A stretch of 64,000 nucleotides of DNA from Taklimakanibacter albus (GTDB taxonomy: Bacteria; Pseudomonadota; Alphaproteobacteria; Rhizobiales; Aestuariivirgaceae), in assembly GCF_016595235.1 (NCBI RefSeq), contig NZ_JAENHL010000006.1:1178001-1242000 (forward strand), read 5' to 3'. Made by a program: the position numbers and the translations under genes. The notes under the pieces are model-generated. The model was not told where the DNA came from, ran no database searches, and worked only from the letters and a program-made list of their open reading frames with translations. Below, piece after piece: positions 24,686-44,448 of the stretch (within the stretch, counting starts at the first letter, position 1; every line of letters starts with the position of its first letter).

Positions 24686-24812
24686 TAGAGCCCTTCCCGT
24701 TTTGGTCGAACCGTTTCGGTTCGGTCAAAATGGGAAGAAGGGCTCGAAATCAAATAATCTGGAGCGCTTCCTTATCGCCAAAGTCGAGCAACTTTGGCGG
24801 GAAGCGCTCTAG
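24686..24812. repeat. RIME-like palindromic element, copy 1
   Basis: 127 bp, bounded by TAGAG and CTCTAG, with two long hairpins. Hairpin 1 pairs 24688-24711 with 24715-24745; hairpin 2 pairs GAGCGCTTCC and CGCCAAAGT with ACTTTGGCG and GGAAGCGCTC. Copy 2 is at 44322-44448 with compensatory changes. The two-palindrome plan resembles RIME elements of rhizobia. Confidence 0.88.
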
Positions 24813-24863
24813 CCCTTGGACTTCAGCTTGACGCATCACGACGTCTGCTGGCAGGGAGTGTCG

Positions 24864-25841
24864 ATGACCATGACGCGTGAGTCCGCCTCGTTTCGCCTGC
24901 GGACCGATGCCCTTCCGGCGCGCGACCGCGTCGAGATCATGCGCGAAGTCTATGGCCGCACCGTGCTCAAGGTCGATGTCGATCCGGTGGCGCCGCTTGC
25001 CGTCGACATGACACTGCGCGGCCTGCCCGGTGTCGGCATCGCCATCGGCTCCAGCTCGCAATTGCGCGCGCATCGCTCGACCGCCTTGATCGACAATGAC
25101 GATGTGATCCTGCTCTTGGCACGGTCGGGCGCCAGCCTGATGAAGCATCGCGGCCGCGAGGAATCCGTCAATGAAGGCCAGGCGCTGATCATGAGCGGCG
25201 GCGAAGTCGGCATCAGCCAGATCCAGCCGGGCGGCTTGCACTTTATCAATATGAGCTTCTCGATGCGCAAGCTGGCGCCCCTGGTCGGCGATCCGGGTGC
25301 CGTCTTCATGCGGCCGCTTCCGACCGACAGCGCGCCGATGCGGCTGCTGATCGATTATGTGCAGGCGGTGCAGGCCATCGATCGCGAGGCGCCTGCCGAA
25401 ATGTGGCACCTCGCGGCGACACATATGATCGACCTGATGGCCGTCGCGATGGGGGCGACGCGCGATGCCACCGAGATCGCCCGCGGCCGCGGCGTGCGGG
25501 TGGCGCGGCTGCGCGCCATCAAGGCCGACATCATTGCGCATGGCGCGAATTTGTCGACCGACCAGATCGCCGCGCGCCATCGTCTGTCACCGCGTTATGT
25601 GCGCAAGCTGTTCGAAGGCGAAGGCACGTCACTGTCCGACTTCATGCTGTCGCAACGGCTCGAGCGCGCGCATCGCCTCCTGAGCGATCCGCGCCAGGCG
25701 GGCGCGACCATCACGGCCATCGCCTTCGAGGCCGGCTTCAACGACCTGTCCTATTTCAACCGTGCCTTCCGGCGCCGTTATGCCGTGACGCCGACGGATG
25801 TGCGTGCCGCGGTGAAAAAGGCGCGCGACGACGAAACGTAA
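24864..25841 (+). CDS. AraC-family regulator, duplicated copy A
   Basis: A 325-residue regulator. The N-terminal sensing domain resembles AraC_binding_2 (about residues 20-190). The double HTH spans about residues 220-320: LSTDQIAARHRLSPRYVRKLFEGEG and ITAIAFEAGFNDLSYFNRAFRRRY. It is about 75% identical by eye to the gene at 26958-27935, of equal length. GGGAG lies 6 bases before the ATG at 24864. It is divergent from the small-protein operon at 24396-24554, its probable target. Confidence 0.92.
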   Translation: MTMTRESASFRLRTDALPARDRVEIMREVYGRTVLKVDVDPVAPLAVDMTLRGLPGVGIAIGSSSQLRAHRSTALIDNDDVILLLARSGASLMKHRGREESVNEGQALIMSGGEVGISQIQPGGLHFINMSFSMRKLAPLVGDPGAVFMRPLPTDSAPMRLLIDYVQAVQAIDREAPAEMWHLAATHMIDLMAVAMGATRDATEIARGRGVRVARLRAIKADIIAHGANLSTDQIAARHRLSPRYVRKLFEGEGTSLSDFMLSQRLERAHRLLSDPRQAGATITAIAFEAGFNDLSYFNRAFRRRYAVTPTDVRAAVKKARDDET

Positions 25842-25846
25842 CGCGC

Positions 25847-26365
25847 TCAACGCCGGCTATAGACGCCGCTCGCCTCGCCGGAAGAATCGGTGATGCGCAA
25901 ACTGCCGCCCTCAAGGCGCCAATGGTGCGAAACCGGCTTCAGATCGGAGGGATCAAACTTCCAGGTGCCGGTGAGGTCCGGCCGGCAGTCATTCACGGAT
26001 TTGTAGGTCCCGGCCGACGGCGTGAAGACGATCGTGCCGCCGTTCACCTTTATCCTCCCATCTTTCAACTCCAGCGACCGGATCTGGCCACAGCCGTCCA
26101 CCAAACCAGACTGGAACAGAGCAAAAGTGGTACGGCCGTCGGGCTTGAAGTCGAAGGAGATGCTGCCGCCGCTGCCCGGGGCGCAGTGATTGAAGTCGGC
26201 ACAATATTCGCCGATGGCGACGGCGAAGCCCCATTTGCCGACGAGTTCGGGCGGGACCAGCCCCGCGCTTTCCGCCGGAACGCCGGTGATGATCGCCCAC
26301 CCGGTCGCTGCCGCGACGAGCAGCATGCCGATATGCCGCTGCCGCTTGCCGGATTGCCTCAGCAT
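25847..26365 (-). CDS. secreted protein, duplicated copy B
   Basis: A 172-residue paralogue of the protein at 23860-24396. It shares LVGKWGFA, GSISFDFKPDGRT, GTYKSVNDCRPDLTGTW and the end LRITDSSGEASGVYSR, and the same cysteine positions. The N-terminus is hydrophobic (about residues 12-30). The start overlaps the stop of the upstream gene by 7 bases. Confidence 0.75.
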   Translation of the reverse strand: MLRQSGKRQRHIGMLLVAAATGWAIITGVPAESAGLVPPELVGKWGFAVAIGEYCADFNHCAPGSGGSISFDFKPDGRTTFALFQSGLVDGCGQIRSLELKDGRIKVNGGTIVFTPSAGTYKSVNDCRPDLTGTWKFDPSDLKPVSHHWRLEGGSLRITDSSGEASGVYSRR

Positions 26366-26679
26366 CCCTTGCTCGCCTTGACCGTGTTCAGATAGGCGAG
26401 CCGCGTCGTGATGACCTCCGTCACAATGGCTTGTTTGCCGGCGGGAGCCTTGCCGCCATATTTCTTCGCCGCCGGGCTGGCCGTAAGGCCGGTTTCATAA
26501 TTGGCCTCTATCTGCCCGAGCTCGGTGCAGGACATGCTCTGATAGCGCGCTTTCTCCTGCGCGGTGATGACGCCGGCCTGCGCCAGGCCGATGGAGTTGG
26601 CGATCGGATTGCCGCCGACGCAGCCGGATAGGCCGAGGCAGAACAGCGCTGACAATCGCAGGAGGTGTCGCAAGGCCAT
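26359..26679 (-). CDS. small lipoprotein in the duplicated unit B
   Basis: A 106-residue protein with a lipobox-like LSGC at about residue 20 (MALRHLLRLSALFCLGLSGC). The mature part is helical (GVITAQEKARYQSMSCTELGQI) and ends KASKGC. It has no counterpart in unit A, so it was gained by B or lost by A. The ATG overlaps the stop of the MFHL-type gene (TGATG), and its own stop overlaps the next start. Confidence 0.7.
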   Translation of the reverse strand: MALRHLLRLSALFCLGLSGCVGGNPIANSIGLAQAGVITAQEKARYQSMSCTELGQIEANYETGLTASPAAKKYGGKAPAGKQAIVTEVITTRLAYLNTVKASKGC

Positions 26680-26780
26680 CACCTGTCCCCATCGAACCTG
26701 AGTGTGATCAACCAGGCTTGCGCGTCGCACCTTGCGGATGCCAGCGCCGACAGGGTCTTCCAGAAATGGAGATGAAACAT
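26679..26780 (-). CDS. MFHL-type small protein, copy B (33 residues)
   Basis: It begins MFHLHFWKTLSALASARCDA, which agrees with copy A at 12 of 20 positions, and ends RFDGDR. It is coupled to the next gene by TGATG. Conservation between duplicated units, despite divergence elsewhere, supports that it is translated. Confidence 0.55.
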   Translation of the reverse strand: MFHLHFWKTLSALASARCDAQAWLITLRFDGDR

Positions 26781-26957
26781 CGGACCTCACGAGCTGTGAC
26801 CTGAATACGTTCCGGGAATCGAAACGCGGCCGCAACCTAAGGATCGGGCGGACCAAGGGCTCGGACTGAGCGGCCCTCAATTTGGCCAGAACGGCCCTAT
26901 ATTGACGTTTCTCACGGTCGGGCGCATATCCGCGCGCTCGCGGACAGGGAGTTTCCC

Positions 26958-27935
26958 ATGACGACGGCGAGGCAGTCCGCCTCGTATCGACTGCGGACCG
27001 ATGCGCTTCCGGAGAGAGATCGCGTCGAGATCATGCGCGAGATCTATGGCCGCACCGTGCTCAAGGTCGATCTCGATCCGCTTGCCCCGCTCGATGTCGA
27101 CATGACCTTGCGCGCGCTGCCGGGCCTCGGCATCGCCACCGGCCGCTGCACACAGCTGCGCGCGTATCACTCCACACCGTTGATCGACAGCGACGACGTC
27201 GTCCTGCTGGTCGCCTTGTCGGGCGCCAGCCTCATGAAGCATCGCGGCTGCGAGGAGATCGTCAATACCGATCAGGCCGTGATGCTGAGCGGCAGCGAGG
27301 TCGGCAGCAGCCAGATCCAGCCGGGCGGCCTGCGCTTCATCAATATGAGCTTTTCCCTGCGCCGGCTGGCGCCGCTGGTCGGCAATCCCGCGGCCGCGCT
27401 GATGCGGCCCTTGCTTGTCGCTACCGCGCCGATGCGGCTTCTGATCGACTATGTGAGCGCCGTCCAGGCGATGGAGCACGAGGCGCCACCGGAGATCTGG
27501 CGCCTGACGGCGACGCATATCTTCGATCTGATGGCCATGGCGATGGGCGCGACCGGCGATGCGGCCGAAGTCGCCAGGGGCCGCGGCGTGCGGGTGGCGC
27601 GGCTGCGCGCCATCAAGGCCGATATCGCCGCCCATGGCGCTCAGCTTTCGGCCGACGATATCGCCATCCGCCACCGGCTCTCACCGCGTTATGTGCGCAA
27701 GCTGTTCGAGAGTGACGGCACATCTCTTACCGACTTCATATTGGCGCAGCGGCTCGAACGCGCTCACCGCATGCTGAGCGATCCGCGCCAGGCGGGACGC
27801 AACATCACGGCCCTCGCTTTCGAGGCCGGCTTCAACGATCTGTCCTATTTCAACCGCACCTTCCGGCGCCGCTACGGCGCGACACCATCGGAGGTGCGCG
27901 CCACGGCGCAAGGGGCACGCGACGACGAGACGTGA
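26958..27935 (+). CDS. AraC-family regulator, duplicated copy B
   Basis: A 325-residue paralogue of the gene at 24864-25841, with the same domain order. The recognition-helix regions are nearly identical (HRLSPRYVRKLFE, AFEAGFNDLSYFNR), so both may bind similar sites. GGGAG lies 8 bases before the ATG. Upstream, the motif GGCCCTCAA-TTGGCC-AACGGCCCT is shared with copy A and is a candidate operator. Confidence 0.92.
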   Translation: MTTARQSASYRLRTDALPERDRVEIMREIYGRTVLKVDLDPLAPLDVDMTLRALPGLGIATGRCTQLRAYHSTPLIDSDDVVLLVALSGASLMKHRGCEEIVNTDQAVMLSGSEVGSSQIQPGGLRFINMSFSLRRLAPLVGNPAAALMRPLLVATAPMRLLIDYVSAVQAMEHEAPPEIWRLTATHIFDLMAMAMGATGDAAEVARGRGVRVARLRAIKADIAAHGAQLSADDIAIRHRLSPRYVRKLFESDGTSLTDFILAQRLERAHRMLSDPRQAGRNITALAFEAGFNDLSYFNRTFRRRYGATPSEVRATAQGARDDET

Positions 27936-28023
27936 GCGCGCCGAGATCAAGCAATCCTGGTCTACGCCGAGCGCAGAGCCTTCGCCCTATCCTTGCCGCG
28001 CCATATTGGCGAAGATCATCACC

Positions 28024-28713
28024 ATGAGCACAAACGTACCCTCCGCCTCGGCCTTCACTCGTTATGCGCAAGCCTATGACGCGATGCGCCGCCGCCTTAT
28101 CCCCTGCTTCGACGACCTCTACGGTGCGGCCTTGCGCCTGATCGACGACTGGAAGACGCGCGAGGACTTTCGCGTGCTCGATCTCGGTGCCGGGACCGGC
28201 TTGTTCTCGGCCATGATCCTGGAGCGCTTTCCGAAGGTCCGGCTGCATCTGATCGACGCCTCGTCCGGCATGCTCGATCAGGCCAAAGAGCGCTTCCGCG
28301 GCAACTCGTCCGTCACCTTCGGCATCCGCGACATGGCGACATCCAATCTGGACGGCCCTTGGGACGTCATCGTGTCGGCGCTCGCCATCCACCACATTGA
28401 CGATCACGCCAAGCAGTCACTGTTTGCACGCGTCGCCGCTAGTCTCGAGCCCGGCGGCCTGTTCGTCAATGCCGAGCAGGTTCGGGGTCCGACGCCGGAA
28501 GCGGAAGACCGTTATGTCCGTTTCTGGCATGCCGACATCCGCGCCGCCGGTGTTTCCGAAGAAGAGATCGCCGGCGCCGCCGAACGCATGGCCTTCGACC
28601 GCTGTGCATCCGTCGAGGCGCAGCTTGCCTGGATGCGCGCGGCGGGCCTGCACGATGTCGATTGCAGCTTCAAGTCCTGGCGCTTCGCGGTGCTGAGCGG
28701 GCGCCGAGCCTGA
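28024..28713 (+). CDS. class I SAM-dependent methyltransferase
   Basis: A 229-residue enzyme. SAM motif I is VLDLGAGTGLFS near residue 52; HLIDASSGMLDQAKERF supplies the ribose-binding acid; VSALAIHHIDD matches motif post-II. The substrate is unknown. The ATG at 28024 is preferred to an upstream TTG at 28006. It converges with the MFS gene of the arsenic operon; the stops are 2 bases apart. Confidence 0.88.
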   Translation: MSTNVPSASAFTRYAQAYDAMRRRLIPCFDDLYGAALRLIDDWKTREDFRVLDLGAGTGLFSAMILERFPKVRLHLIDASSGMLDQAKERFRGNSSVTFGIRDMATSNLDGPWDVIVSALAIHHIDDHAKQSLFARVAASLEPGGLFVNAEQVRGPTPEAEDRYVRFWHADIRAAGVSEEEIAGAAERMAFDRCASVEAQLAWMRAAGLHDVDCSFKSWRFAVLSGRRA

Positions 28714-28715
28714 GC

Positions 28716-29903
28716 CTATCCCCTCGCTTGCATCAGGCGTCCTATTCCCAAAAACGTCACCACCGCGCCGGCCCCCAACGCCATGGTGATCCCGAGGGAC
28801 CAGGTGGCGCCGATCTGTGCCATGCCGGCAGCGAAAGCAAAGGGCGCGGCCGCCGAGACGACCAGACGCGCCGAGGCGACCCGTCCCTGCAGCCTTCCAT
28901 AGCCTTCGCTTCCAAACAGCAGAAGCGGCAAGGTGCCGAGCACGATGCTGAACAGGCCATTGCCCAGGCCGAAGAGAACGGCAAAGGCCATGGCTCCAGT
29001 GACCATCGGCGCCGTCAGAATGAGCACCAGAACCGCACCCGACATCAGGGCCGCCGCGATGGTGGCGAGGATCACCGGCGACAGGTTGCGCCCGAAAGCC
29101 ATGTTGATGAGGCGGCTCGCCACCTGGGACGGGCCGAAGACCGTGGCGATGATGGCCGCCGTGGCGGTGAGGCCCAGCGCCGCCAGCATCGGCACCATGT
29201 GAATGAGAACCGCCGAGGCGACGAAGGACTGGAGCGAGAAGGCCAGGATCATCAGCGCGAAGCCGATCGGCCGCGCGGTGACCGAGAGCCTGCCGATGAC
29301 CGGCTCTGTTCCCGCCGCAATCGCATCCCGGCTGCGCGCCAGTCCCCGCGCCAGCCACGCATGCAGCGGCAGGCAGACCAGAAGATTGAGCGCGGCGAAG
29401 ATCAGATAGACGGAGCGCCATGACATCTGCGTCTCCAGAAAGGCGGTGATCGGCCAGAAAACGGTCGAGGCGAAGCCGCCGATCAAGGTCAGATAGGTGA
29501 TGCTCCGTTGCGCCTGGGCCGGATTGAGCTGCACGAGAAGTGCGAAAGCGGCGCCATACTGGACGAGGCTCGCCGCCACTTCGACGACGACGAGAGTGCC
29601 GACAAAGATGAGCTTGTTGGGCGCCAGGCTGCAGCCGATGAGGGCTGCCGCCGCGCAGGCCGAGCCGATGGTCATCAACCGCCCGGCGCCGTAGCGATCA
29701 ATCAGAATGCCGAACCACGGCGCCGTCAGCCCCCCGACCAGGAGCGAAAGCGACAGGGCCGCGAAGATCCATTCGACCGACCATGTCAGATCGCGCGCCA
29801 TATCCGGCGCCAGGATGCTGAAGGCGTAATAGAGCGTCCCGTAGCCAATGATCTGGGTCACGCCAAGGGCGACGATTGGCGCAATCGATAGGCGTGCATT
29901 CAT
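28716..29903 (-). CDS. MFS transporter in the arsenic operon (ArsK-like?)
   Basis: A 395-residue permease with 12 hydrophobic segments. It opens with QIIGYGTLYYAFSILAPDMA, and GILIDRYGAGRLMTIG is the loop 2-3 MFS motif. It overlaps the acr3 stop by one base (TGATG), so it is the last gene of the arsR-arsC-acr3 operon. By position it could export arsenicals or an organo-arsenic product. ArsK-type MFS proteins fit the context, but I cannot confirm the subfamily from motifs. Confidence 0.82.
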   Translation of the reverse strand: MNARLSIAPIVALGVTQIIGYGTLYYAFSILAPDMARDLTWSVEWIFAALSLSLLVGGLTAPWFGILIDRYGAGRLMTIGSACAAAALIGCSLAPNKLIFVGTLVVVEVAASLVQYGAAFALLVQLNPAQAQRSITYLTLIGGFASTVFWPITAFLETQMSWRSVYLIFAALNLLVCLPLHAWLARGLARSRDAIAAGTEPVIGRLSVTARPIGFALMILAFSLQSFVASAVLIHMVPMLAALGLTATAAIIATVFGPSQVASRLINMAFGRNLSPVILATIAAALMSGAVLVLILTAPMVTGAMAFAVLFGLGNGLFSIVLGTLPLLLFGSEGYGRLQGRVASARLVVSAAAPFAFAAGMAQIGATWSLGITMALGAGAVVTFLGIGRLMQARG

Positions 29904-30961
29904 CAGGCGTTTTCAGACTCGAGGGGCTGCTCTGCGGTGGAACCGCGCTCATACCATGCCTTGGACCGATTCACGATCGCCACGACCGACAGCATGACCG
30001 GCACCTCGACCAGGACGCCGACCACCGTCGCCAGTGCCGCACCGGAGCTGAAGCCGAACAGGCTGATCGCCGCCGCCACCGCAAGCTCGAAGAAGTTCGA
30101 AGCCCCGATCAGGGCGGAGGGACCGGCCACGCAATGCCGCTCGCCCAGGAAGCGATTGAGCAGATAAGCCAGGCCTGAATTGAAATAGACCTGGATCAGG
30201 ATCGGCACCGCGAGAATACCGATGACCAGCGGCTGCGCGATGATCTGTTCGCCCTGGAAGCCGAACAGCAGAACCAGAGTTGCGAGAAGCGCCAGCAGCG
30301 ACAAGGGCTGCAGCTTCTTGAGGAGACGATCGAGCGCCCCCTGCCCGCCGGACGCCAGAAGGAAGCGGCGCAGCAGCTGGGCGGCGATCACGGGAATGAC
30401 GATGTAGAGGCCGACGGAAAGGATCAGCGTGTCCCACGGTACGATGATGGCCGAGAGGCCGAGCAGCAGGCCGACGATCGGCGCAAAGGCCACCACCATG
30501 ATCGCGTCGTTCAGCGCGACCTGCGACAAGGTGAAATGCGGTTCGCCCTTGGTGAGATTGGACCATACGAACACCATGGCCGTGCAGGGTGCGGCGGCCA
30601 GAATGATAAGACCGGCAATATAGGAGTCGATCTGGTCCGCCGGCAGATAGGATCGGAACAGCCAGCCGATAAAGAGCCAGCCGAGCAAGGCCATCGAAAA
30701 TGGCTTCACCGCCCAATTGATGAAGAGCGTCACGCCGATGCCGCGCCAATGGCGGCCGACCTCGCCGAGCGCTGCAAAGTCGATCTTCAGCAGCATCGGC
30801 ACGATCATGAGCCAGATCAGCAAAGCGACAGGAATATTGACCTTGGCTAACTCGGCGGCGCCGATCGCATGGAATATCCCGGGAAACAAATGGCCGAGCG
30901 CCACGCCCGCAATGATGCAGAGCGCCACCCAGACGGTCAGATAACGTTCGAATATCGACAT
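29903..30961 (-). CDS. acr3: ACR3-family arsenite efflux transporter
   Basis: A 352-residue, ten-TM As(III) exporter driven by proton motive force. The family signature with the essential Cys is present (LAAAPCTAMVFVWSNLTKGEP, near residue 130). WAVKPFSMALLGWLF and GASNFFELAVAAAISLFG are also typical of ACR3. It starts 4 bases after the arsC fusion gene, in the arsenic operon. Confidence 0.95.
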   Translation of the reverse strand: MSIFERYLTVWVALCIIAGVALGHLFPGIFHAIGAAELAKVNIPVALLIWLMIVPMLLKIDFAALGEVGRHWRGIGVTLFINWAVKPFSMALLGWLFIGWLFRSYLPADQIDSYIAGLIILAAAPCTAMVFVWSNLTKGEPHFTLSQVALNDAIMVVAFAPIVGLLLGLSAIIVPWDTLILSVGLYIVIPVIAAQLLRRFLLASGGQGALDRLLKKLQPLSLLALLATLVLLFGFQGEQIIAQPLVIGILAVPILIQVYFNSGLAYLLNRFLGERHCVAGPSALIGASNFFELAVAAAISLFGFSSGAALATVVGVLVEVPVMLSVVAIVNRSKAWYERGSTAEQPLESENA

Positions 30962-30965
30962 GAGG

Positions 30966-31889
30966 TCAGAACTTCTTGGTCAGGATTGTCGCGGAAGCCG
31001 GGCAGAGACTGGCGGCTTGCCGCGTCGCCAGAATCGCTTCCGGCACGGCATCGCGGTCCACCGGCGTGAAGCCTTGTTTCTCGAAGAACGGAGCAGCCGA
31101 AGTGGTGATCAGATAACCGCGCCGCGCTCCCGCCTGTGTCGCCTCCGCGATCAGCAGCCGGAGCGTCGTCTCGCCGATCCCGTGGCCCTTATGGTCAGGC
31201 AAAACCACGATCGAGCGCAGCAGCGCGTCGTCGCCGTGCAATTCGTAGCCCGCGAAACCAACCGTCGCGCCGCCACGGATCACCCGGAAGAATCTGCGGC
31301 CCTCTTCCGTCAGGTCGTCGACCGGCAGTTTTTCGCCGGCCAGCGCACCGCGCAATTCCGGCGCGAGACCGTCGATGGGAAGCAAAGCAAGCCACGTCGC
31401 TCCCTCAGCCGAACCGATCCGTTGCAAGTGACGACGCAACACCATGCCGTCGATCGACTCCATGGGCAGGTTCAAGAAGGCAATGATGCGGTTCTTGAGA
31501 TATCTGGCCGCCGTCGAGAAGATGCGCTCCTTCTCGATATCGCTCCCCTCCACCGCGGCGGGATCCTCGATGCCCCAATGGGCAGTCATCGGCTGACCCG
31601 GCCAGATCGGGCACATCTCGCCGGCCGCGCTGTCGCAAACGGTGAAAACGAAATCCATGACCGGGGCGCCCGGCGACGCAAACTCGTCCCATGGCTTCGA
31701 GCGCAGTCCGTCGGTCGGATAATCCAGGGCGGCCAGGACCTTCAGGGCGAAGGGATTGACCCGCCCTTTAGGCTGGCTTCCGGCCGAAAAGGCATTGAAC
31801 CGTCCGGCGCCTTCCTTCCGCAAGATGCTTTCGGCCAGGATCGAGCGGGCGGTATTGCCGGTGCACAGAAACAGGACATTGTACGTCAC
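30966..31889 (-). CDS. arsC: arsenate reductase fused to a GNAT acetyltransferase (ArsC-ArsN2)
   Basis: A 307-residue two-domain protein. Residues 1-140 are the LMW-PTPase type of arsenate reductase (LFLCTGNTARSILAE with the CX5R loop; VCDSAAGEMCPIWPG). Residues about 165-300 are a GNAT fold of ArsN2 type (GGATVGFAGYELHG, SIVVLPDHKGHGIGETTLRLL, TSAAPFFEKQGF). The first reduces arsenate to arsenite; the second may acetylate an arsenic compound or amino acid. It starts at a GTG overlapping the arsR stop (GTGA). Confidence 0.92.
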   Translation of the reverse strand: MTYNVLFLCTGNTARSILAESILRKEGAGRFNAFSAGSQPKGRVNPFALKVLAALDYPTDGLRSKPWDEFASPGAPVMDFVFTVCDSAAGEMCPIWPGQPMTAHWGIEDPAAVEGSDIEKERIFSTAARYLKNRIIAFLNLPMESIDGMVLRRHLQRIGSAEGATWLALLPIDGLAPELRGALAGEKLPVDDLTEEGRRFFRVIRGGATVGFAGYELHGDDALLRSIVVLPDHKGHGIGETTLRLLIAEATQAGARRGYLITTSAAPFFEKQGFTPVDRDAVPEAILATRQAASLCPASATILTKKF

Positions 31890-32239: not shown

Positions 32240-32281
32240 ATTTCAATAATCCTATGAATATCGAAATGATGGATAAATGAG
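32240..32281. promoter_or_regulatory. divergent arsR/DUF6428 promoter-operator region
   Basis: Only 42 bases separate the two starts. The AT-rich stretch has an imperfect dyad (ATTTC...GAAAT, about 32241-32267), a plausible ArsR site acting on both genes. Confidence 0.4.
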
Positions 32282-32815: not shown

Positions 32816-32942
32816 GACAGCGATGAACAGACCTCCGAGAAAACCCGGTTACGATTCCTGCGACGCTGACGCCTGCGCCGAGCATTGAGCTCGTCACATT
32901 CGCCTTCGCAGATATCGCGACCTACCTTCTTGGAGATCCCCC

Positions 32943-33866: not shown

Positions 33867-33887
33867 TCGCAACGGCTCTGCGGGCGT

Positions 33888-35424: not shown

Positions 35425-35446
35425 CCCTAAGAAAGCTCGAGCAACC

Positions 35447-35971: not shown

Positions 35972-37658
35972 CCGCCACGGGCACCAGCCAGCCCCGATAA
36001 CGCACGATAAGGCCCGTCAGGGGATGACCAATCTCCACGTGGAAGTGGAAGCGTCCCTCTTCCACGCTCTCATGCGCTGTCGAGCGCGGGCACAGGAACA
36101 TCGGCATGGGAATGCCGAAGGCCCGCCAGTGGCGCAGGACGAGCGACAGGCGTCCGTCCTTCAGCACCAGCGCCATGGCGAAGGTCAAAGGGCCGAAGCG
36201 CTCGTAAAGCAAAACCTCATCCTGGCCCGTGCCGGCGAACTGCGCGCTGTGGAAAGTCTCGGCGCCGAAACTGCGCGTCCAGGTCTCGACGCCATGCGTG
36301 ACGTCGAAACGCACCCGAACCGGCGTGTCGGCGGTCGCGGCGGGAAAGCCGATGACGGCGCCGGCGAGGCGCGCCAGGAAGCCCTGCCCGCGCTCGACGC
36401 CGGCGCGCCCTTCCGCCAGAGCCGTCGTCTCAACCTGATGCATCGCGCGGATTTCCGCCGGCAATTCCTTCCATGCCGAACCCAGGATGCGCTCATAGAG
36501 CGGCGCCCCGTCGGGCAACGGCTCATGCCTGACGCCCCATGCGATCGACCGGCCGGCGAAGAGGCGTTCATAGTCGGCAAGCTCGAGGTCGCGTGTTGCC
36601 GCCCGTGCTCCCGTCAGAGGCGTATGTCCCTCCAGCATCTTGTGGATATAGGCCGCGACCGCCATTGCGGGGATATAAGGTCCGTCATCACCTTCTGCAG
36701 CGAGGTGCCAGGAACGGGTGACGGGCCGGCTGTTTTCATCCATGCCCGCCACTTCCATGAACATGCCGCTCCGATGTTCGCCCCAGCGCAAAGTCCGCGT
36801 CACGCCATGGATCAGCGGCGCCAGGGCGATAAGACTGCGCAGCACGCGCAAACGGACCAGCCAGGCCGCGCCGATGAACAGCCGGTGGAACACCTCCGGC
36901 ACGGGAGCGGCGCCGATCCAGATGTCGCGGGCCTCGGGCCAGAGCTCAGCCAGCGCTCTCAGATCCGGCACTTCGACGAGCGAAAACAGCCGGCTGCACA
37001 GCGGCACGCCACCCGGTGGCGCGATGGTGAAGCGTATTTGCTCCGTGGCCGGATAACCGGTCGCATGAGCGCCGTCTCGCCGCAGGACAATCGGCTTTCC
37101 GGCATAAGAGGCAATGGCCCGCATCACATTCAAGCCCAGATCCGCAAAAGGTGAGGGCGCGAGACCACCGCGGATGGAGTCGATATGCGTCATACCACTG
37201 ATGAGGTGGCGCACCGCCGCCGCGGAAAGCGCTGGAAAGCTCGACGCGCCGGAGAGGACACAGAGTCCTGCCGTCCTGGCCCGCTGATCAAAGGCCGAAA
37301 TGCCCATGACGAAATCGGCGCTGTCGGCCAGATCGAGATAATGCGCGCCTTGCACGATCGCCGCCTCGACGAGACGATATTGCCCCGCGCCATAGGCCTG
37401 GAAGGGACCGCTCGCATCGACGACGACGTCCGGCTCGAGCCGCGCCAGCTGTTGTGCCAGTTCGCCGTCACGATCGAACACCGCCGGAACGAGCTCGGCT
37501 TGAAGTGACTTTCGCCCCGCGCAGTAGTCCTCGGCGTGTTTCAGCGAACGCCCCGCGACGATGATCGTGAGGCGCGCTTCGTCCTCCAGAAGCTCGACGA
37601 TCCGGCCGCCGAAGCTGCCATAGCCGCCGACGATCAGGAGTCTGAGACGCTTGCCCAT
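35952..37658 (-). CDS. saccharopine dehydrogenase-like NAD(P) domain plus DUF4166
   Basis: A 568-residue protein. The N-terminal Rossmann domain has LLIVGGYGSFGGRIVELL (residues 7-24) and VVDASGPFQAYG, as in saccharopine dehydrogenase-like proteins. The C-terminal 190 residues match DUF4166 (MHQVETTALAEGRAGVERGQGFLARL, GFPAATADTPVRV, WTRSFG). Enzymatic role unknown; possibly a dehydrogenase linked to a lipid-type substrate. Confidence 0.85.
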   Translation of the reverse strand: MGKRLRLLIVGGYGSFGGRIVELLEDEARLTIIVAGRSLKHAEDYCAGRKSLQAELVPAVFDRDGELAQQLARLEPDVVVDASGPFQAYGAGQYRLVEAAIVQGAHYLDLADSADFVMGISAFDQRARTAGLCVLSGASSFPALSAAAVRHLISGMTHIDSIRGGLAPSPFADLGLNVMRAIASYAGKPIVLRRDGAHATGYPATEQIRFTIAPPGGVPLCSRLFSLVEVPDLRALAELWPEARDIWIGAAPVPEVFHRLFIGAAWLVRLRVLRSLIALAPLIHGVTRTLRWGEHRSGMFMEVAGMDENSRPVTRSWHLAAEGDDGPYIPAMAVAAYIHKMLEGHTPLTGARAATRDLELADYERLFAGRSIAWGVRHEPLPDGAPLYERILGSAWKELPAEIRAMHQVETTALAEGRAGVERGQGFLARLAGAVIGFPAATADTPVRVRFDVTHGVETWTRSFGAETFHSAQFAGTGQDEVLLYERFGPLTFAMALVLKDGRLSLVLRHWRAFGIPMPMFLCPRSTAHESVEEGRFHFHVEIGHPLTGLIVRYRGWLVPVAVTDRGP

Positions 37659-37714
37659 TGGGGGAGATGATCCTGTGCCGGGATCACCTCCCTAGCAAAT
37701 AGGCCGATACGCCA

Positions 37715-38632
37715 TCAAGGCTGCGCGGGCAGTGTGTGGACCAGGCCGCGCGTGAACCCCGAAGGAAATACGGTCAGATGATTTTCTCCGGCCAGCACTT
37801 CGGACTTCACGCGCAGACCGGGATAGCCGCGTTTCATCACGCGTCGCTCGAACAGCTGGAGATCCTTCACCATGTCACGGTTGCGATTGAAGCGCCGGTC
37901 ATTCGGATGAACGCCCTCGAAGGCGCCGACATAGAGGAAGACATTGGCGGCAAGGTCGCGATGCGCCTTGGCATAGTCCGCTTCGATTTTCCACATCACG
38001 TGATTGTCGTACCAGAAGGACGGGCTGCCGAGGATGTAGTCTCGGAAGAGCTGCGGCTCGGAGAGCAGGATCTGCGCGCCGAGCAGGCCGCCATAGGAAT
38101 GGCCCATGAAGACACGGCGGCCGGGATCGGCCCGGAATTTACGCTCGACGAAAGGCAGCACCTGATCGCGCAGATAGCGCTGATACTGAGCGCCCTGCCC
38201 GTGCACTGCCTTCTTGGGCGCCCCCTCGCCACCGCGGATCGTCGGCGTGTAATCGCGCCGCCGGCTGGTCATGCCGTCCTCGCCTTTGGCATAGGACAGG
38301 CCGACCAGGATGAACTCCTCGGTCACCGGCCCGTCGAGATTGATGCGCCGGGTGATGCTGCGGATGAGCGGGAAACCGTAATCGGCGTCGGCGACATAGA
38401 GAACGGGATAACGGCGCTCCGGCTCGTGCGCATAACTCGCCGGAAGGCTCACAAAGACCTCATAGAGGCGACCCGATCGCGGATCGGGCACCGACCAGAC
38501 CTGCGTGCCCTCGAGCGTATAAGCCCGCCCCTCTTCCGTCGCGGGCGCCGATCGCGCGATTGACGGGACGGCGATCAGCGTGAGGCCGATGACCGCCGCA
38601 GAAAGAAGCTTCGTGTCGCAAATGATACGCAT
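37715..38632 (-). CDS. secreted esterase (ferri-siderophore esterase-like)
   Basis: A 305-residue alpha/beta hydrolase with a signal peptide (MRIICDTKLLS to ARSA|PA). It belongs to the esterase D/Fes-like fold: RRYPVLYVADADYGFPLIRS, then the nucleophile in GHSYGGLLGAQIL, and a late GENHLTVFP with the catalytic His. It could release iron from siderophores or cleave other esters. The ATG at 38632 is chosen since the signal peptide begins there. Confidence 0.83.
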   Translation of the reverse strand: MRIICDTKLLSAAVIGLTLIAVPSIARSAPATEEGRAYTLEGTQVWSVPDPRSGRLYEVFVSLPASYAHEPERRYPVLYVADADYGFPLIRSITRRINLDGPVTEEFILVGLSYAKGEDGMTSRRRDYTPTIRGGEGAPKKAVHGQGAQYQRYLRDQVLPFVERKFRADPGRRVFMGHSYGGLLGAQILLSEPQLFRDYILGSPSFWYDNHVMWKIEADYAKAHRDLAANVFLYVGAFEGVHPNDRRFNRNRDMVKDLQLFERRVMKRGYPGLRVKSEVLAGENHLTVFPSGFTRGLVHTLPAQP

Positions 38633-38697
38633 AGGTCCCCGGAAATGAGCGAGCTGAACCGTCCCTGCGAACTCTCTCACGGCGGTCTGCGGTCGAT

Positions 38698-39576
38698 TTA
38701 AGGCACCTTTACGCCACGCGACTCCACAGCCGGCACCGCGATTCGGCGCCAGGACGCCGCCACCTCCTCCGGGCTAGCCGCGCGGACCGCTTTCAGATCG
38801 CGCGGATAGGCGACACCATCGGCTTCACTGAGGCGTGTCGCGTGAAACTGCCCGTTGCTGGCGCGCAGAATCCACCCAGCCTCCGAACACTCCTGGGAGA
38901 CGAGATAGATTGCACCGGGCGCGATCTCGCCGGGTTTGAGCTCGTCGGGCTCCTCGGCGATGCCCCACATCCGCGTCTTGGCCACCGGCGAGATCGCGTT
39001 GACGATGATGCCGTGCGGCGCGCCCTCATCGGCCAGCACATTGACGATGCCGACGGCGCCGATCTTCGCCGCCGCATAAGCGGCAAGGCCAGGCTGCACA
39101 TATTGTGGATAGAGCGCACGGTCTGACGTCGTCAAAAGGATACGCCCATAGTTCCGCGCCTTCATCGCCGGCCAGGCTGCCTGGGCTAACCACAACGGCG
39201 ACTTGACACCGAGCGCCAGCATCCGGTCGAGGAACGCCTCGTCGAGCTCCTCGATGCGCTGATAGCCGACCCAGCCGGCATTATGGATCAGCACATCGAG
39301 ACGGCCATGTTTCTCCAGCACGCGCGCGACGAGCGCATGGCACTCGTCCCGCGTCTCGATACTGCCGCTTTCGCCGAAGGCCTTGCCGCCGATGGCCTGT
39401 AGTCCCGCCGCCGCGGCATGCGCGACGGCCGGATCATGGCCCTGGCCGTCGGATCCGGCACCGACATCGTGGACGACGACCACGGCGCCGCGTTCAGCCA
39501 GAAGCTTCGCATATGCGAAGCCGATGCCCCGGCCGGCGCCGGTGATGAGGGCCACCTGCCCGTCGAACCTGATCAT
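38698..39576 (-). CDS. SDR-family oxidoreductase
   Basis: A 292-residue short-chain dehydrogenase. The cofactor motif is TGAGRGIG (residues 13-20); NAG and VKSPLWLAQ follow, and the catalytic Tyr-Lys is YAAAKIG near residue 168. The inserted GAGSDGQGHDP segment is typical of the hydroxysteroid/multifunctional-enzyme 2 type of SDR. Substrate unknown. Confidence 0.9.
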   Translation of the reverse strand: MIRFDGQVALITGAGRGIGFAYAKLLAERGAVVVVHDVGAGSDGQGHDPAVAHAAAAGLQAIGGKAFGESGSIETRDECHALVARVLEKHGRLDVLIHNAGWVGYQRIEELDEAFLDRMLALGVKSPLWLAQAAWPAMKARNYGRILLTTSDRALYPQYVQPGLAAYAAAKIGAVGIVNVLADEGAPHGIIVNAISPVAKTRMWGIAEEPDELKPGEIAPGAIYLVSQECSEAGWILRASNGQFHATRLSEADGVAYPRDLKAVRAASPEEVAASWRRIAVPAVESRGVKVP

Positions 39577-39597
39577 TTGCTCTTCCTTGTCTTAGGT

Positions 39598-40008
39598 TCA
39601 GGCGCTTTCGGGAGCGTCGACCTCGAGGACGGTCAACTCATGCCGCTGGCCGTTCCGCGCCGTCCACAGGATCGACTGTCCGGGCGACAGCCCGATGAGC
39701 GCCGTTCCGACCGGCGTCAGGATCGACATCTTGCCTTTCGCGATATCGGCCTCAGGCGGGAAGACCAGGGAAACGGTGCGCTCGAGCCCCTTCTCGTCTT
39801 TGAAACGCAGGCGCGATCCCATGCGGATGACGCCTTGGGCGATCTTGTCGTCGGCGACGACGCGCGCCCGCTCGAGCTCGCCGGCGAGGTCGTCGGCCAG
39901 CGCCGCGTCGCGCTCAGCGATGGCATCGGCGAGCATGCTCAGCCGGGCATGGTCGCTCGTCGAGATGCTGATTTCGGGCTTCTGGCGGGCTGTGGTGATG
40001 TCGGTCAT
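39598..40008 (-). CDS. rnk: nucleoside diphosphate kinase regulator / GreA-GreB C-terminal domain
   Basis: A 136-residue protein. An N-terminal short coiled coil (HARLSMLADAIAERDAALADDLAGELERA) is followed by the FKBP-like GreA/B C-terminal domain (MGSRLRFKDE, VSLVFPPEADIAKGKMSILTPVGTALIGL). This is the Rnk layout; Rnk binds RNA polymerase without stimulating cleavage. Confidence 0.9.
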   Translation of the reverse strand: MTDITTARQKPEISISTSDHARLSMLADAIAERDAALADDLAGELERARVVADDKIAQGVIRMGSRLRFKDEKGLERTVSLVFPPEADIAKGKMSILTPVGTALIGLSPGQSILWTARNGQRHELTVLEVDAPESA

Positions 40009-40093
40009 GTCAAATAGGCCTATTACGCTTCCGCCCGGTTACGGTGCGGGAGTCCTGCAATTTATGAGGGAAATGAGAGGTTGGCGGCGCCTT

Positions 40094-40226
40094 AGCGACG
40101 AGCGAGCGGAAAAGACTCAAGCCCTGCCCCACGACTCGGAGGTGCCAGGGGGCCGAGCCGGGGGTTACGTTCCCGCGATGGGGCAGGCCCCATAATGAAG
40201 ATGAGTCGTATTTCGCTGCATTTTTT
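40094..40226 (+). ncRNA. candidate rod-like structured RNA
   Basis: Nested long-range pairs: AGCGA (40101-40105)/TCGCT (40213-40217), GACTCA (40114-40119)/TGAGTC (40202-40207), CCTGCCCCA (40123-40131)/TGGGGCAGG (40179-40187), with two small hairpins inside. The last arm runs into TTTTTT at 40221-40226. No coding frame is convincing in 40009-40378. Confidence 0.35.
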
Positions 40227-40378
40227 GCATGGCTCATAGTTGGGGGCGCCGCTCCCGATGTCAAGCGCAACCCGTCCAGGCCCGGTTAACAGTGTCGGGG
40301 CTTGCCCGATTGACAGCGGGCCGGGGATGGAAAATATTCCAAAAAGGAGGGGCAAATCAGCCCTTGGAGGAGAGACGG

Positions 40379-40678
40379 ATGATCAAGATGATGGTGGCGG
40401 CGGCCGGACTTTCGGTCGGTCTGATGATGATGCCGGTGGCGACGGTCCCCGCAAAGGCCGGTGTCAATATCGATATCAATATCGGTGGCAAGAAACGGAT
40501 CAGCTGCCGGCGCGGCGCGCGGATCGCCGAGGATTACGGTTACTTCCGCATTCGCGCCCGTGACTGCAGCGGCGGCACTTACAGCTATTTCGGCCGGCGC
40601 AACGGCAAGAGCTACATCATTTACGTCGACTCCAGGCGCGGCTACGTCTCCGATGTCCGCCGCGTCGGTTATTACTGA
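40379..40678 (+). CDS. small secreted basic protein
   Basis: A 99-residue protein with a signal peptide (MIKMMVAAAGLS to PAKA|GVN). The mature part begins with VNIDINIGGKKRISC and has two cysteines, many Arg and Tyr residues and a YSYFGRRNGKSYIIYVDSR stretch, resembling short PepSY/BA14K-like periplasmic proteins of rhizobia, but I cannot assign it. GGAGGAGAG precedes the ATG. Confidence 0.75.
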   Translation: MIKMMVAAAGLSVGLMMMPVATVPAKAGVNIDINIGGKKRISCRRGARIAEDYGYFRIRARDCSGGTYSYFGRRNGKSYIIYVDSRRGYVSDVRRVGYY

Positions 40679-40705
40679 TACGGCTCGGAAATCGCGAGCC
40701 TAAGC

Positions 40706-40738
40706 AAACAGCGGGCACTTGCCCGCTGTTTTCGTTTG
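40706..40738 (+). terminator. intrinsic terminator
   Basis: Stem AACAGCGGGC/GCCCGCTGTT with an ACTT loop followed by TTCGTTT. It ends the small secreted-protein gene. Confidence 0.9.
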
Positions 40739-40896
40739 GCGTTATTGCTCGTCGATCAATTGCATTTTAATGGAATTGCATCCGTCTGTGACATATGAGC
40801 AACAGTAACGACAATTCGACCACCCTTACCTAGCGTATCACTGGTGCAACAAGGAACTTTGAGGCGTAATCCGACTCATCACTCCTCCATGGAACT

Positions 40897-40920
40897 AAGG
40901 CCCTGCGGGGCCTTTTTCTT
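40897..40920 (+). terminator. orphan intrinsic terminator, possible end of an sRNA
   Basis: Stem AAGGCCC/GGGCCTT followed by TTTCTT on the plus strand. The nearest plus-strand gene already has its own terminator, so a separate short transcript from within 40740-40896 is possible. That stretch carries an ACTCCTCC anti-Shine-Dalgarno-like motif. Confidence 0.6.
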
Positions 40921-40938
40921 TGGCGGAGGGCAAACGGC

Positions 40939-41931
40939 CTAGCAGGCCAAGGCGGCGGCTTCCTGCTGCGTCGCCGAGCGTTCCTTCTCATTTCGGGCTT
41001 TGGCATAGAACTCTTGCGCCTTGGCAAGGCTCTTACAGCTGTCGGCCTTGCGGTCGAGCGAGGCCAGGATAGTGGCGTGCGTGCGGTACTGGACCGCCGA
41101 GACGTAGTCTGACCCGGCCGGTCCCGACAGGCTCTTTTCGGAAAAACTCAACGCCTCGTCGAAACGCTTCATGGCGAGGAGGATCTGCGCCTGGGTGTCG
41201 TTGATGGTCGACAACACGCCCTTGTCGCCCAGTACCTCGGCGATACGTAGCCCTTCCTGCGCCGGGGGCAGCGCTTTGCCATACTGTTTGCCGCGCAGAT
41301 ACATCCAAGCCAGATTGTTATAGGCGAGAGCCTTCATATACGGATCGGCCGGCGACTGCGCCTCTGCCCGTTTGCGGGTCTCCTCGAGATAATATTCTCC
41401 GCGATCGAAATCCCCGTCGTGAACATAGGCAATGCCCAAGGACATGATGATCTGGGATTCGAGCGCCGGATTGATCTCCCTGGCGAGGCTGGCCGCTTCA
41501 TGAAAATACGTGATGGCTTCTCCATACCGCCCACTGGAATCCAATGTTGCGGCCAATTCGACGATGACATGCACCCGGTTCGACTTGAGCAGCGGCGGGA
41601 ACGAGCTCGCATCCACAGCGAGCGCGGCCATCGTATAACGTTCGGCCGCCGCCGCATCCTTCTTGTACTCGCTATTCAGACCGGCCAGCATTCCGTTCAG
41701 ACCGAACTGATATTCCGGCGCGGAGAATGCCTCGTCCGCGACCGCGGCAAGCAGAAGCTGTTCGGCAGCGACGGGGTCCTGGGCGTCCAGCTTGGTGAAC
41801 ACGTTGCGGTGGAGCTCCGCAAATCGCTGCTCCGCCTGGTTTTCGATGTGGAAGTAGGTATACGCCATCAAAGCGAGAACGGCGACGGTGGCGACAACGG
41901 TCGCGACAATGGTGATTAGCGTCTTCTTCAC
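40939..41931 (-). CDS. membrane-anchored TPR protein
   Basis: A 330-residue protein. A single N-terminal TM helix (about residues 5-26) is followed by TPR-like repeats: GRYGEAITYFHEAASLAREI, ALAYNNLAWMYLRGKQYGKAL and LLAMKRFDEALSFSEKSL. It probably acts in protein assembly at the membrane, but there is no clue to its partner. Downstream lies an orphan terminator on the other strand. Confidence 0.82.
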   Translation of the reverse strand: MKKTLITIVATVVATVAVLALMAYTYFHIENQAEQRFAELHRNVFTKLDAQDPVAAEQLLLAAVADEAFSAPEYQFGLNGMLAGLNSEYKKDAAAAERYTMAALAVDASSFPPLLKSNRVHVIVELAATLDSSGRYGEAITYFHEAASLAREINPALESQIIMSLGIAYVHDGDFDRGEYYLEETRKRAEAQSPADPYMKALAYNNLAWMYLRGKQYGKALPPAQEGLRIAEVLGDKGVLSTINDTQAQILLAMKRFDEALSFSEKSLSGPAGSDYVSAVQYRTHATILASLDRKADSCKSLAKAQEFYAKARNEKERSATQQEAAALAC

Positions 41932-42078
41932 AGGATGCCCCCGGCAGATTCGACGCCGACGCTAATCCACGGTCGGCGCCAGGTCGAGACTCTTTCCTGG
42001 GCGTCACCGGCGCGCCACATTGCTGAATCAGAGCTTAGCCGGTAAGTGTCAGATCAAATCAGCCACGGAGTTTCGACG

Positions 42079-43287
42079 GTGAAGCTTGTCCCCCTCTGCC
42101 TGTCCGCCTTGCTTGTGTTGGCCACGTCCACTGCCGCCTCGGCCGCCGACTGCCAGCCCACCTCCCCTTCCAAATTCCCGAGCTGGCTTTCGGGGGTCAA
42201 GAAGGAAGCCGCCGGGATGGGCATTTCGCGGCGCGGGCTCGCCGGCCTAGACGGCCTCACCTATGATCCCGCGGTCATCAAGCGGGACCGCTCGCAGAGC
42301 GTCTTCTCCCTCACTTTCCTCGAATTCCAGGCGCGCCTGATTTCCGGCGGTCGCATGAACAAGGGCGCCGCGCTCATCAAGCAGCATGCGGCGATCTTCA
42401 AGCAAGTGGAGCAGCGCTACGGCGTGCCGCCCTCGGTGATTACCGCCTTCTGGGGCCTCGAAACCGATTTCGGCGGTTATATGGGTGATTTCCATACCAT
42501 CCGCTCGCTCGCGACGCTCGCCTTCGATTGCCGGCGGCCTGAGAAATTCCGCCCGCAGGTCTTTGCCGCCCTCCAGATTCTGGATCGCGGCGATATGACC
42601 GAAGAGGATATGGTCGGCGCCTGGGCCGGCGAGATCGGCCAGGTGCAGTTCCTCCCCGCCGATTTTCTCGAGAGCGCCGTCGACGCCGATGGCGACGGCC
42701 GTGTGGACCTCAAGCGCAGCATTCCCGACATTCTGATGTCGACCGGCAGCCTTCTCGTCAATCACGGCTGGCAAGCCAACCAGCCCTGGCTGCAGGAAGT
42801 GAGCGTTCCCGAGGACATGCCATGGGATCAGGCCGATATCGCCATCCAGCATCCGCGGTCGCAATGGGCCAAATGGGGAGTAAAACTGGTATCCGGGAAG
42901 AGCCTGAAGGCAGACAAGGCAGGAGCCTCGCTGCTCCTGCCCATGGGCCGTCACGGTCCGGCTTTCCTCGCCTATCCGAATTTCACCAAGGTCTATCTGA
43001 AGTGGAACGAGTCGCTCATCTACTCGACGACGGCCGCCTATTTCGGCACCCGTCTCGCGGGCGCTCCGCCGGTCAGCAAGGGCAATGGTCCGGTCGATGC
43101 TCTCGACTACAACCAGATCATGGAATTGCAGAAGATCCTGACCCGCATGGGTTATGACGTCGGCAAGGTCGACGGCAAGCTGGGGGCCGCAAGCCGGGCC
43201 GCGGTCAAGGCGGTACAGATCAAGCTCGGCCTACCGGCCGATTCCTGGCCGACGACGGAATTCCTCGCCCGCTTGCGCAAGAGCTGA
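42079..43287 (+). CDS. lytic murein transglycosylase (MltB type) with peptidoglycan-binding domain
   Basis: A 402-residue periplasmic enzyme that cleaves the MurNAc-GlcNAc bond to form 1,6-anhydro ends. A signal peptide (KLVPLCLSALLVLA) is followed by the family 3 lytic transglycosylase domain with the catalytic Glu in FWGLETDFGGYMG and GQVQFLPADFL. The C-terminal 70 residues are a PG_binding_1 domain (QKILTRMGYDVGKVDGKLG). The GTG at 42079 is chosen because GGAG lies 8 bases before it; a GTG at 42046 has none. Confidence 0.93.
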   Translation: MKLVPLCLSALLVLATSTAASAADCQPTSPSKFPSWLSGVKKEAAGMGISRRGLAGLDGLTYDPAVIKRDRSQSVFSLTFLEFQARLISGGRMNKGAALIKQHAAIFKQVEQRYGVPPSVITAFWGLETDFGGYMGDFHTIRSLATLAFDCRRPEKFRPQVFAALQILDRGDMTEEDMVGAWAGEIGQVQFLPADFLESAVDADGDGRVDLKRSIPDILMSTGSLLVNHGWQANQPWLQEVSVPEDMPWDQADIAIQHPRSQWAKWGVKLVSGKSLKADKAGASLLLPMGRHGPAFLAYPNFTKVYLKWNESLIYSTTAAYFGTRLAGAPPVSKGNGPVDALDYNQIMELQKILTRMGYDVGKVDGKLGAASRAAVKAVQIKLGLPADSWPTTEFLARLRKS

Positions 43288-43295
43288 CGGCAACG

Positions 43296-44324
43296 ATGAC
43301 GGAACGACGTGCCTCCGCCCAAGAACTGGCGGCCTTATCCTATGCGGTTTTGACCTCGGCCGGCGCCGATCCGGATTCGGCCGAGGCAACGACCGGCGCC
43401 ATGCTGCACGCCTCGCTTCTGGGCGTCGACAGCCATGGCATCAGGCTCCTGCCCTTCTATGCCGATTGCCTGAGGGACGGCATCTGCAATCCGAAGCCCA
43501 AGATCACCGTGTCGCATCCGCGCCGCAGCGCCGTGCTGGTCGACGCCGATGACGGCCTCGGCCATCTCCCCACCTATCGGGCCATGGACGAGGCCTGCGC
43601 CATTGCGCGCGACACCGGCATCGGCATGGGCGTGGTGATCAACTCGACCCATTTCGGCGCCGCCGGCGCCTATGCGCTCGCCGCCGCGAATGCCGGCTTC
43701 ATCGGCTTCGTCACCTGCAATTCAGGCGCCTTCGTCGTGCCTTATGGCGGCAAGAAGCCTATTCACGGCACGAGCCCGATCGCCATGGCGGCGCCCCTCG
43801 AGAGCCGTGATCCCTATTTCCTCGACATGGCGACGAGTTCCATCCCCTGGAACAAGGTGATGCGCTACCGCACCGAAGGGCTCGAGCTGCCTCCTGATGC
43901 GGCGCTCGACGCCGAAGGGCAGTACACCCTGGATCCCAATATGGCGGTCTGCTTAGGCCCCGTCGGCGGTTCGGGCTTCGGCTACAAGGGCGCGGCGCTC
44001 GCCGGCCTGGCCGAAGTCCTGGGCGCCATGCTTACCGGCATGCGGCTCTCCATCGAGCAGGAAGGCGTCGTGCTCGCCGACACCAAGGTCGGCCATTTCG
44101 TCATGGCGATCGATCCGTCGACCTTCGTTCCCCTGGCTGTCTTCAACGAGCGCCATGCGGGCTATCTCGACGGCTTCAAGGCAGAACCTGGAATCATGCC
44201 GGCGGGCGGACCCGAATGGGCGAAGCGGATCGACCGCGAGGCCAAGGGTATTCCGTTGGCCGAAGGTCTCCACCGCGAGCTCGCCGACGCGGCGGACAAG
44301 GCGAAAGTGGCATTTTCGCTCTAG
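43296..44324 (+). CDS. Ldh-family (malate/L-lactate dehydrogenase type 2) oxidoreductase
   Basis: A 342-residue NAD(P)H-dependent enzyme. LLGVDSHGIRLLPFYAD with the conserved Ser-His is near residue 42; NSTHFGAAGAYAL and HGTSPIAMAAP mark the nucleotide site. It could reduce an alpha-keto acid such as ureidoglycolate, sulfolactate or lactate; the substrate is open. It starts 8 bases after the transglycosylase gene. Its TAG stop is the first triplet of the palindromic repeat copy 2. Confidence 0.92.
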   Translation: MTERRASAQELAALSYAVLTSAGADPDSAEATTGAMLHASLLGVDSHGIRLLPFYADCLRDGICNPKPKITVSHPRRSAVLVDADDGLGHLPTYRAMDEACAIARDTGIGMGVVINSTHFGAAGAYALAAANAGFIGFVTCNSGAFVVPYGGKKPIHGTSPIAMAAPLESRDPYFLDMATSSIPWNKVMRYRTEGLELPPDAALDAEGQYTLDPNMAVCLGPVGGSGFGYKGAALAGLAEVLGAMLTGMRLSIEQEGVVLADTKVGHFVMAIDPSTFVPLAVFNERHAGYLDGFKAEPGIMPAGGPEWAKRIDREAKGIPLAEGLHRELADAADKAKVAFSL

Positions 44325-44448
44325 AGCCCTACCCGTCTTGATCGAATCGGAACGATTCGATCAAGACGGGTAAAAGGGCTCGAAAACATATAATCTGGAG
44401 CGCTTCCTTATCGCTAAAGTCGAGCAACTTTGGCGGGAAGCGCTCTAG
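44322..44448. repeat. RIME-like palindromic element, copy 2
   Basis: 127 bp, same ends (TAGAG...CTCTAG) and same two hairpins as 24686-24812. The second half is almost unchanged; the first hairpin differs at many positions but keeps its pairing. It supplies the stop codon of the upstream gene. Confidence 0.88.

Follow-up and report, generated by a model that had tools for sequence, protein, structure and literature searches.

What is the 127-bp two-hairpin sequence that stands twice in a 64,000-nucleotide stretch of the Taklimakanibacter albus genome (contig NZ_JAENHL010000006.1, positions 1,178,001 to 1,242,000; hereafter the window), and how did it come to be there? An earlier note on this DNA had described the two copies, assigned them to a family resembling the Rhizobium-specific intergenic mosaic elements (RIMEs), and proposed that their base pairing is kept under selection. 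Here the T. albus genome holding the window (G000) is compared with those of four congeners (G001-G004), of which G001 is the sister and G003 the outgroup. The element is real, mobile and RIME-like, and most likely mobilised by IS630. Its identity as a mobile element, with ends bounded by TA in the manner of IS630 insertion sequences (ISs), adds to the earlier description. The explanation that we consider probable, with room for doubt, is a RIME-like non-autonomous element, broadly a miniature inverted-repeat transposable element (MITE), which employs the ends of an IS of the IS630 family (Tc1/mariner type).

Mobility between sister genomes

The two copies in the window are laid out as follows:

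24686-24812, + strand: copy 1, whole element, 127 bp (hairpin 1 at 24688-24745, linker at 24746-24758, hairpin 2 at 24759-24812)
44322-44448, + strand: copy 2, whole element, 127 bp (hairpin 1 at 44324-44381, linker at 44382-44394, hairpin 2 at 44395-44448)

The coordinates and sequence details reported previously were confirmed to the single base. Both copies start with TAGAG and end with CTCTAG, and a single base differs between them in the paired part of hairpin 2. In hairpin 1, the alignment of the copies shows double-sided changes at three pairs (T-A to A-T, T-A to C-G and C-G to T-A); a further three pairs are G.T in one copy and canonical in the other.

Both copies are absent from orthologous sites elsewhere: copy 1 (L001) faces an empty site in G001, and copy 2 (L018) faces empty sites in G001 and G003, the sister reading CTC TAA ATTC at the copy 2 site where the window reads CTC TAG[...]CTC TAG ATTC. 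More broadly, all 31 of the G000 flanks queried had a G001 counterpart, and among the 30 sites compared, 21 lacked the element in G001, six carried it (one internally deleted) and three were unclear (L004, L009, L027). The elements therefore move, since 21 of the 30 compared sites are empty in the sister genome, and transposition itself is the process that these differences suggest. The reverse comparison used 25 of the 32 G001 copies (five common to both genomes and two weak ones were omitted); 17 of the 25 loci could be placed in G000, 13 without the element and four unclear. An outgroup check covered 26 loci, 23 of them with a G003 locus and several of these too diverged to read (a second-place G003 match, L253, was dropped). 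At L053, L059 and L097 the outgroup and the sister are alike in the empty form. Loss also occurs: the L163 element, present in G001 and G003, was lost from G000 with AGAGCTCTA left behind. In one intergenic region (L009 in G000, L157 in G001), the sister genomes carry elements at different points and in opposite orientation.

Family size and distribution

Copy counts are lower bounds, as the best 40 (DNA search), 150 (model search) and 28 (order-wide model search) candidates were scored. The DNA search of G000 returned 50 match pieces, with the best 40 candidates scored, and at least 27 near-full-length copies from this genome were aligned (alignment A2) and used to build covariance model R1. 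With this model, G000 gave at least 109 matches at E<=0.01, many of them opposite-strand readings of the same palindromes, and at least 33 above 80 bits. At E<=1e-8 there were at least 45 matches in G001, at least 62 in G003 and at least 31 in G002; weaker matches in the congeners include other two-hairpin types. Among 20 genomes searched with the DNA sequence, matches fell in five, G000-G004, all of a single genus and G004 included; the matches listed contained no genome from the 15 that belong to other genera. The element was also absent from plasmids in a BLASTN search. The multi-copy family of this lineage that had been postulated is thus present in T. albus and in all four congeners, and the genome-wide covariance-model search proposed for checking it found further copies with the pairing kept.

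Across the order, at least 11 of 121 genomes, G000 counted, gave a model match at E<=1e-6. The best match in each of the ten others has the left end TAGAGC in seven, the right end exactly GCTCTAG in two (one to three changes away in the rest) and a hairpin 2 with a 4-nt 5' bulge in nine, with inner-stem sequences that largely differ from those of the window family. These elements were detected with the model, so their likeness in shape is in part built into the search.

A second, 115-bp family of like build (TAGCGCGCATCCCGGCGAAG...GGGATTTGCTCTAG) also occurs in G000, where it accounts for 11 of 20 model matches inspected (L121-L127, L132, L137-L139); the inner stem and the TTAT-type bulge of hairpin 2 are common to it and the 127-bp family. 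Hairpin 2 is found as a half-element beside unrelated or different upstream sequence at four G000 loci (L030, L134, L135, L136). In Taklimakanibacter lacteus, a degenerate reversed copy (L033, about 7118-7220) abuts with its end the apparent ATG of a transporter gene downstream of a dehydrogenase.

Ends, target sites and stop codons

The ends of the element are themselves inverted repeats, and in both palindromes GAGC follows directly after TA in the outer arms:

24686-24699, + strand: left end of copy 1, TA-GAGCCCTTCCCG, an IS630-like terminal repeat whose inverted near-copy is the right end (24798-24811)
44434-44447, - strand: right end of copy 2, TA-GAGCGCTTCCCG (left end of copy 2 at 44322-44335)

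Ends were tabulated for 104 copies (32 from G000, 32 from G001, 30 from G003 and ten from G002), which were taken from the best model matches, not from all, and leave out one further G000 match above 80 bits. The left end is TAG in 84 and starts with TA in 87, preceded by T in 42 copies, C in 35, A in 25 and G in two; the right end is TAG in 70 and starts with TA in 78. The bases at the empty sites were scored by hand for 23 of 34 absent sites, the other 11 (L003, L005, L010, L015, L016, L050, L057, L058, L158, L163, L164) being unreadable or unfit, and 15 of the 23 are TA.

All gene contexts, and with them the stop-codon shares below, come from our own crude gene caller, trained on 37 open reading frames (ORFs). 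By these predictions, the neighbouring genes are divergent around 29 of the 104 copies, convergent around 20 and codirectional around 51; two copies lie inside a gene and two could not be placed. In 27 copies the element supplies the TAG stop codon of the adjoining predicted gene, through eight left and 21 right ends (two copies at both). In about ten other places a gene overlaps an end of the element in a different register. Copy 2 is one of the 27:

43296-44324, + strand: Ldh_2-type dehydrogenase gene, with its stop TAG at 44322-44324 forming bases 1-3 of copy 2

The sister stop of this gene is TAA where the window has TAG. Of the 29 stop contacts, 14 have a sister locus, one of which (L004) is not alignable; in all 13 readable cases the sister stop lies at the identical codon, as TAA in six, TGA in four and TAG in three. 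Of 72 stop codons in the window, 51 are TGA. Homing to stop codons was considered and rejected: stop-codon sites would be expected to make up 0.149 of the tolerated sites for a YYAR target and 0.238 for YTAR, against an observed 27 of 104 (0.26), an excess of about two-fold at most (P = 0.002) with YYAR and none with YTAR (P = 0.34). With these expected shares, TA targeting and tolerance account for most or all of the stop landings. Such landings illustrate how a selfish element can occupy the end of a gene without altering its protein.

The proposed link to IS630 insertion sequences

Searches with the DDE_3 (IS630) model gave seven matches in G003. Six of the seven are almost identical and represent one IS of about 1055 bp, whose ends read TAGAGCGTTTTCGTGATTGATGG and, on the opposite strand, TAGAGCATTTTCATAGTTGATGG (TAGAGC...GCTCTAG); its two reading frames carry matches to HTH_Tnp_IS630 and DDE_3. 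Two of the six (L268, L270) are inserted precisely at the TA that ends a two-hairpin element, a different family in each case. Among seven further IS630 copies from named plasmids, searched for TA-bounded pairs only, six have a TA-GAGC repeat pair (from Bradyrhizobium, Microvirga and Polymorphobacter, ISRm10-1, ISRm2011-2 and an unannotated Sinorhizobium meliloti copy with ISRm2011-2 ends), and a Mesorhizobium copy had none in this TA-bounded search. ISRm2011-2, ISRm10-1 and the G003 IS thus resemble the element in having TA followed by GAGC at both ends and, in the copies read, C/T-TA...TA-G junctions. They differ from it in being about 1.05 kb long with a transposase, the element being geneless, and the terminal repeats agree at only 13-15 of 21 positions. 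At both ends of the window family this agreement outscores shuffles, and the ends match the IS630 group and not any single IS. In S. meliloti, a 116-bp element is closest to ISRm2011-2 (14 of 21 on the left and 13 on the right, with the next other family listed at ten on each side).

From these observations the following course of events may be proposed. An IS630-group transposase, supplied in trans, would act at TA|GAGC, and the element would insert at TA, mostly in YTAR-like sites. Insertions within genes would mostly be lost. TAA and TAG stop codons hold the target and the element carries an in-frame TAG, so that some survivors would sit exactly on stop codons, with the element hairpins then directly 3' in the transcript of the host gene. 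Pairing across the family would be kept in the spreading lineages by selection on source copies, by arm-to-arm copying at palindromes, or by both.

Several observations weigh against the involvement of IS630. TA ends are not universal among the 104 copies. Eight of the 23 scored empty sites read CA, with TA at both ends of the filled sites, whereas at background TA sites the sister has CA in only 16 of 359 (P = 4e-6 for at least 8 of 23 by chance); at these eight sites the outgroup has TA in two (L060, L109) and CA in two (L020, L151). Plain TA duplication hence fits about two-thirds of the scored sites and leaves the CA remainder unexplained. The similarity of the ends is a partial identity that consists largely of GAGC, and the IS of the congener is not the closest: the left end agrees with it at 13 of 21 positions and with the Microvirga IS at 14, and the right end agrees best with the Bradyrhizobium IS, at 15. 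No DDE_3 match was found in G000, G001 or G002, and yet most sites differ between G000 and G001, so that the partner has been lost, was missed or is of another kind. An IS630 transposase is not known to need a constant bulge in hairpin 2, such as is seen across the order. As for a partner of another kind, the target of IS5/IS402-type elements is YTAR; this candidate was set aside after a search of G000 with DUF4096, the one IS5 model tried, gave no match.

Relationship to RIMEs and other repeats

RIMEs are reportedly (Osteras et al. 1995) elements of about 100-150 bp with two large palindromes, found in Rhizobiaceae hosts. We know of no mobiliser assigned to them. The element fits this description in its size and its two hairpins, and is multi-copy and mostly intergenic (with only the two copies noted above inside predicted genes); unlike RIMEs, it resides in a host outside the Rhizobiaceae, in the Aestuariivirgaceae. 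RIMEs are mentioned in PMC2573895 and PMC2245857, and the RIME paper is cited in PMC2873474. A full-text literature search, whose reach excluded most subscription papers, returned no RIME mobiliser.

For comparison, repeats were identified de novo in 300 kb sampled from S. meliloti pSymB (1,683,333-bp record) as six stretches of 50 kb. Among them are two-hairpin repeats of 115-118 bp, which form one family, and a 105-bp relative; their ends are of the TAG...GCTCTAG type and their stems unlike those of the window family. Like the window element, they have two large palindromes and many intergenic copies, and their empty sites are of the TA type, as are most of those scored for the window family. 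For three of four elements, other strains or species show the empty site as TTAG, TTAG and CTAG, the left flanks being weak at two, and at the fourth (L259) the flanks were too diverged to read. The only pSymB repeat matched by model R1 was the 105-bp relative (E = 0.0078 in 300 kb). As they fit the description of RIMEs, the pSymB two-hairpin repeats are probably the published RIMEs. The description of the window family as RIME-like accordingly stands for its two-palindrome build, size and ends, and stops short of the stem sequences, which differ; the comparison takes the pSymB repeats to be RIMEs. More tentatively, and with the balance tilting against it, the RIME-type repeats of the Hyphomicrobiales could form one IS630-mobilised class, the copies of each lineage having the terminal repeats of their own IS630 partner (ISRm2011-2 in S. 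meliloti); they would join at YA, not strictly at TA, and overwrite it with their own TA, any stop codon hit becoming TAG. If the IS630 link is true, the origin and movement of RIME-type repeats become testable with known insertion sequences.

Among other known repeats, the enterobacterial repetitive intergenic consensus (ERIC) is a 127-bp enterobacterial sequence with one long imperfect palindrome. Its likeness to the element in size and in its intergenic, MITE-like habit is by description only; ERIC elements are reviewed in PMC10969869.

Maintenance of the base pairing

Both copies fold strongly on either strand. RNA folding gave z scores of -11.7 and -14.1 on the + strand and -9.9 and -11.3 on the - strand (against 200 dinucleotide shuffles each). 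At E<=1 the covariance model matched the window six times: once at each copy on the + strand and four times, more weakly, on the - strand. As the - strand matches overlap the copies, they are the palindromes seen from the opposite strand.

Across alignment A2, 97.9% of cells pair, versus a shuffled mean of 95.2%, and double-sided changes involve 13 pairs and 31 cells, versus 3.7 and 6.0 in shuffles; kinship among the copies inflates this contrast. A slide of the partner by one to three columns lowers all pairing measures. Of 30 listed G003 copies, 24 have G-C in place of a C-G pair of G000 in the inner stem of hairpin 2 (CGCGAAAGT/ACTTTCGCG; one with a further change). Within sites the picture is different. 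Among six orthologous copy pairs, 11 base pairs have changed, of which one is compensatory, two are one-sided and still paired, seven are paired in a single species only and one is paired in neither. With eight of the 11 broken in at least one species, compensatory changes by themselves do not establish selection on individual copies. The earlier claim that pairing is kept under selection thus holds as family-wide covariation above both controls and stops short of selection copy by copy; the pairing belongs to the spreading lineages, and maintenance at the site is moderate at most.

How the compensatory appearance arises is a separate matter, and a neutral process compatible with mobilisation by IS630 might contribute to it. 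Arm-copying, by template switching or inversion at palindromes, would copy one arm of a hairpin onto the other and so give a compensatory look. It is suggested as a possible source by the hairpin loop, which among readable copies is GTTCC in 28 and the inverted GGAAC in three G000 copies and one G003 copy, and by clustered changes, three adjacent loop bases differing between the orthologues L028 and L160 and neighbouring pairs having changed together in L019. Copy 1 and L115, however, hold G.T intermediates, as ordinary compensatory evolution predicts, and the process leaves unaccounted for why the bulge keeps its positions throughout the order. We regard this process as a real contender for the pairing, if somewhat short of a favoured one.

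It is improbable that the element is chiefly a host-useful RNA or DNA structure, such as a 3' untranslated region stabiliser, terminator or insulator, selected at most sites with mobility secondary. Such a function would agree with the strong folds on both strands and the covariation, with the occurrence, in ten further genomes of the order, of like-shaped elements whose stems are unrelated (model-found, and so alike partly by construction), and with the slower change of orthologous stems, where 14 of 572 sites differ versus 17 of about 186 unpaired columns (aligned flanks, 5.2% changed). However, the sister species differ at most sites, the changed orthologous pairs are mostly unpaired in one species or the other, the copies between divergent genes show that the element is not limited to gene ends, and no Rfam family attains its gathering score at the two copies.

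Still less likely is an element of the repetitive extragenic palindromic (REP) or REPIN type, moved by a REP-associated tyrosine transposase (RAYT), a Y1 enzyme acting on single-stranded hairpins with no target duplication: the two inverted hairpins with asymmetric bulges, the Y1_Tnp genes in G001-G004 and the termini of GTAG REPs, which are reported to supply TAG stops to flanking ORFs as the element does (PMC3733652), are in its favour, but G000 has no Y1_Tnp match, seven Y1 loci (L142 and L147 in G001; L141, L143-L146) lack the element in flanks of up to about 1.5 kb, with 11-19 nt matches at chance level only, and the IS630 ends and TA sites go unaccounted for. The paired palindromes common to GTAG REPs/REPINs and the element come here without a flanking RAYT and without the GTAG tag, which is absent given a G before the left TA(G) in only two of the 104 copies.

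Other observations in the window

Copy 1 occupies the intergenic region between two divergent genes and is followed immediately by one of them, for an AraC-type regulator (24816-25841, + strand). Elsewhere in the window, positions 9611-9706 (+ strand) match the ROSE heat-shock RNA thermometer of Rfam, scoring 47.9 bits where the gathering score is 45.

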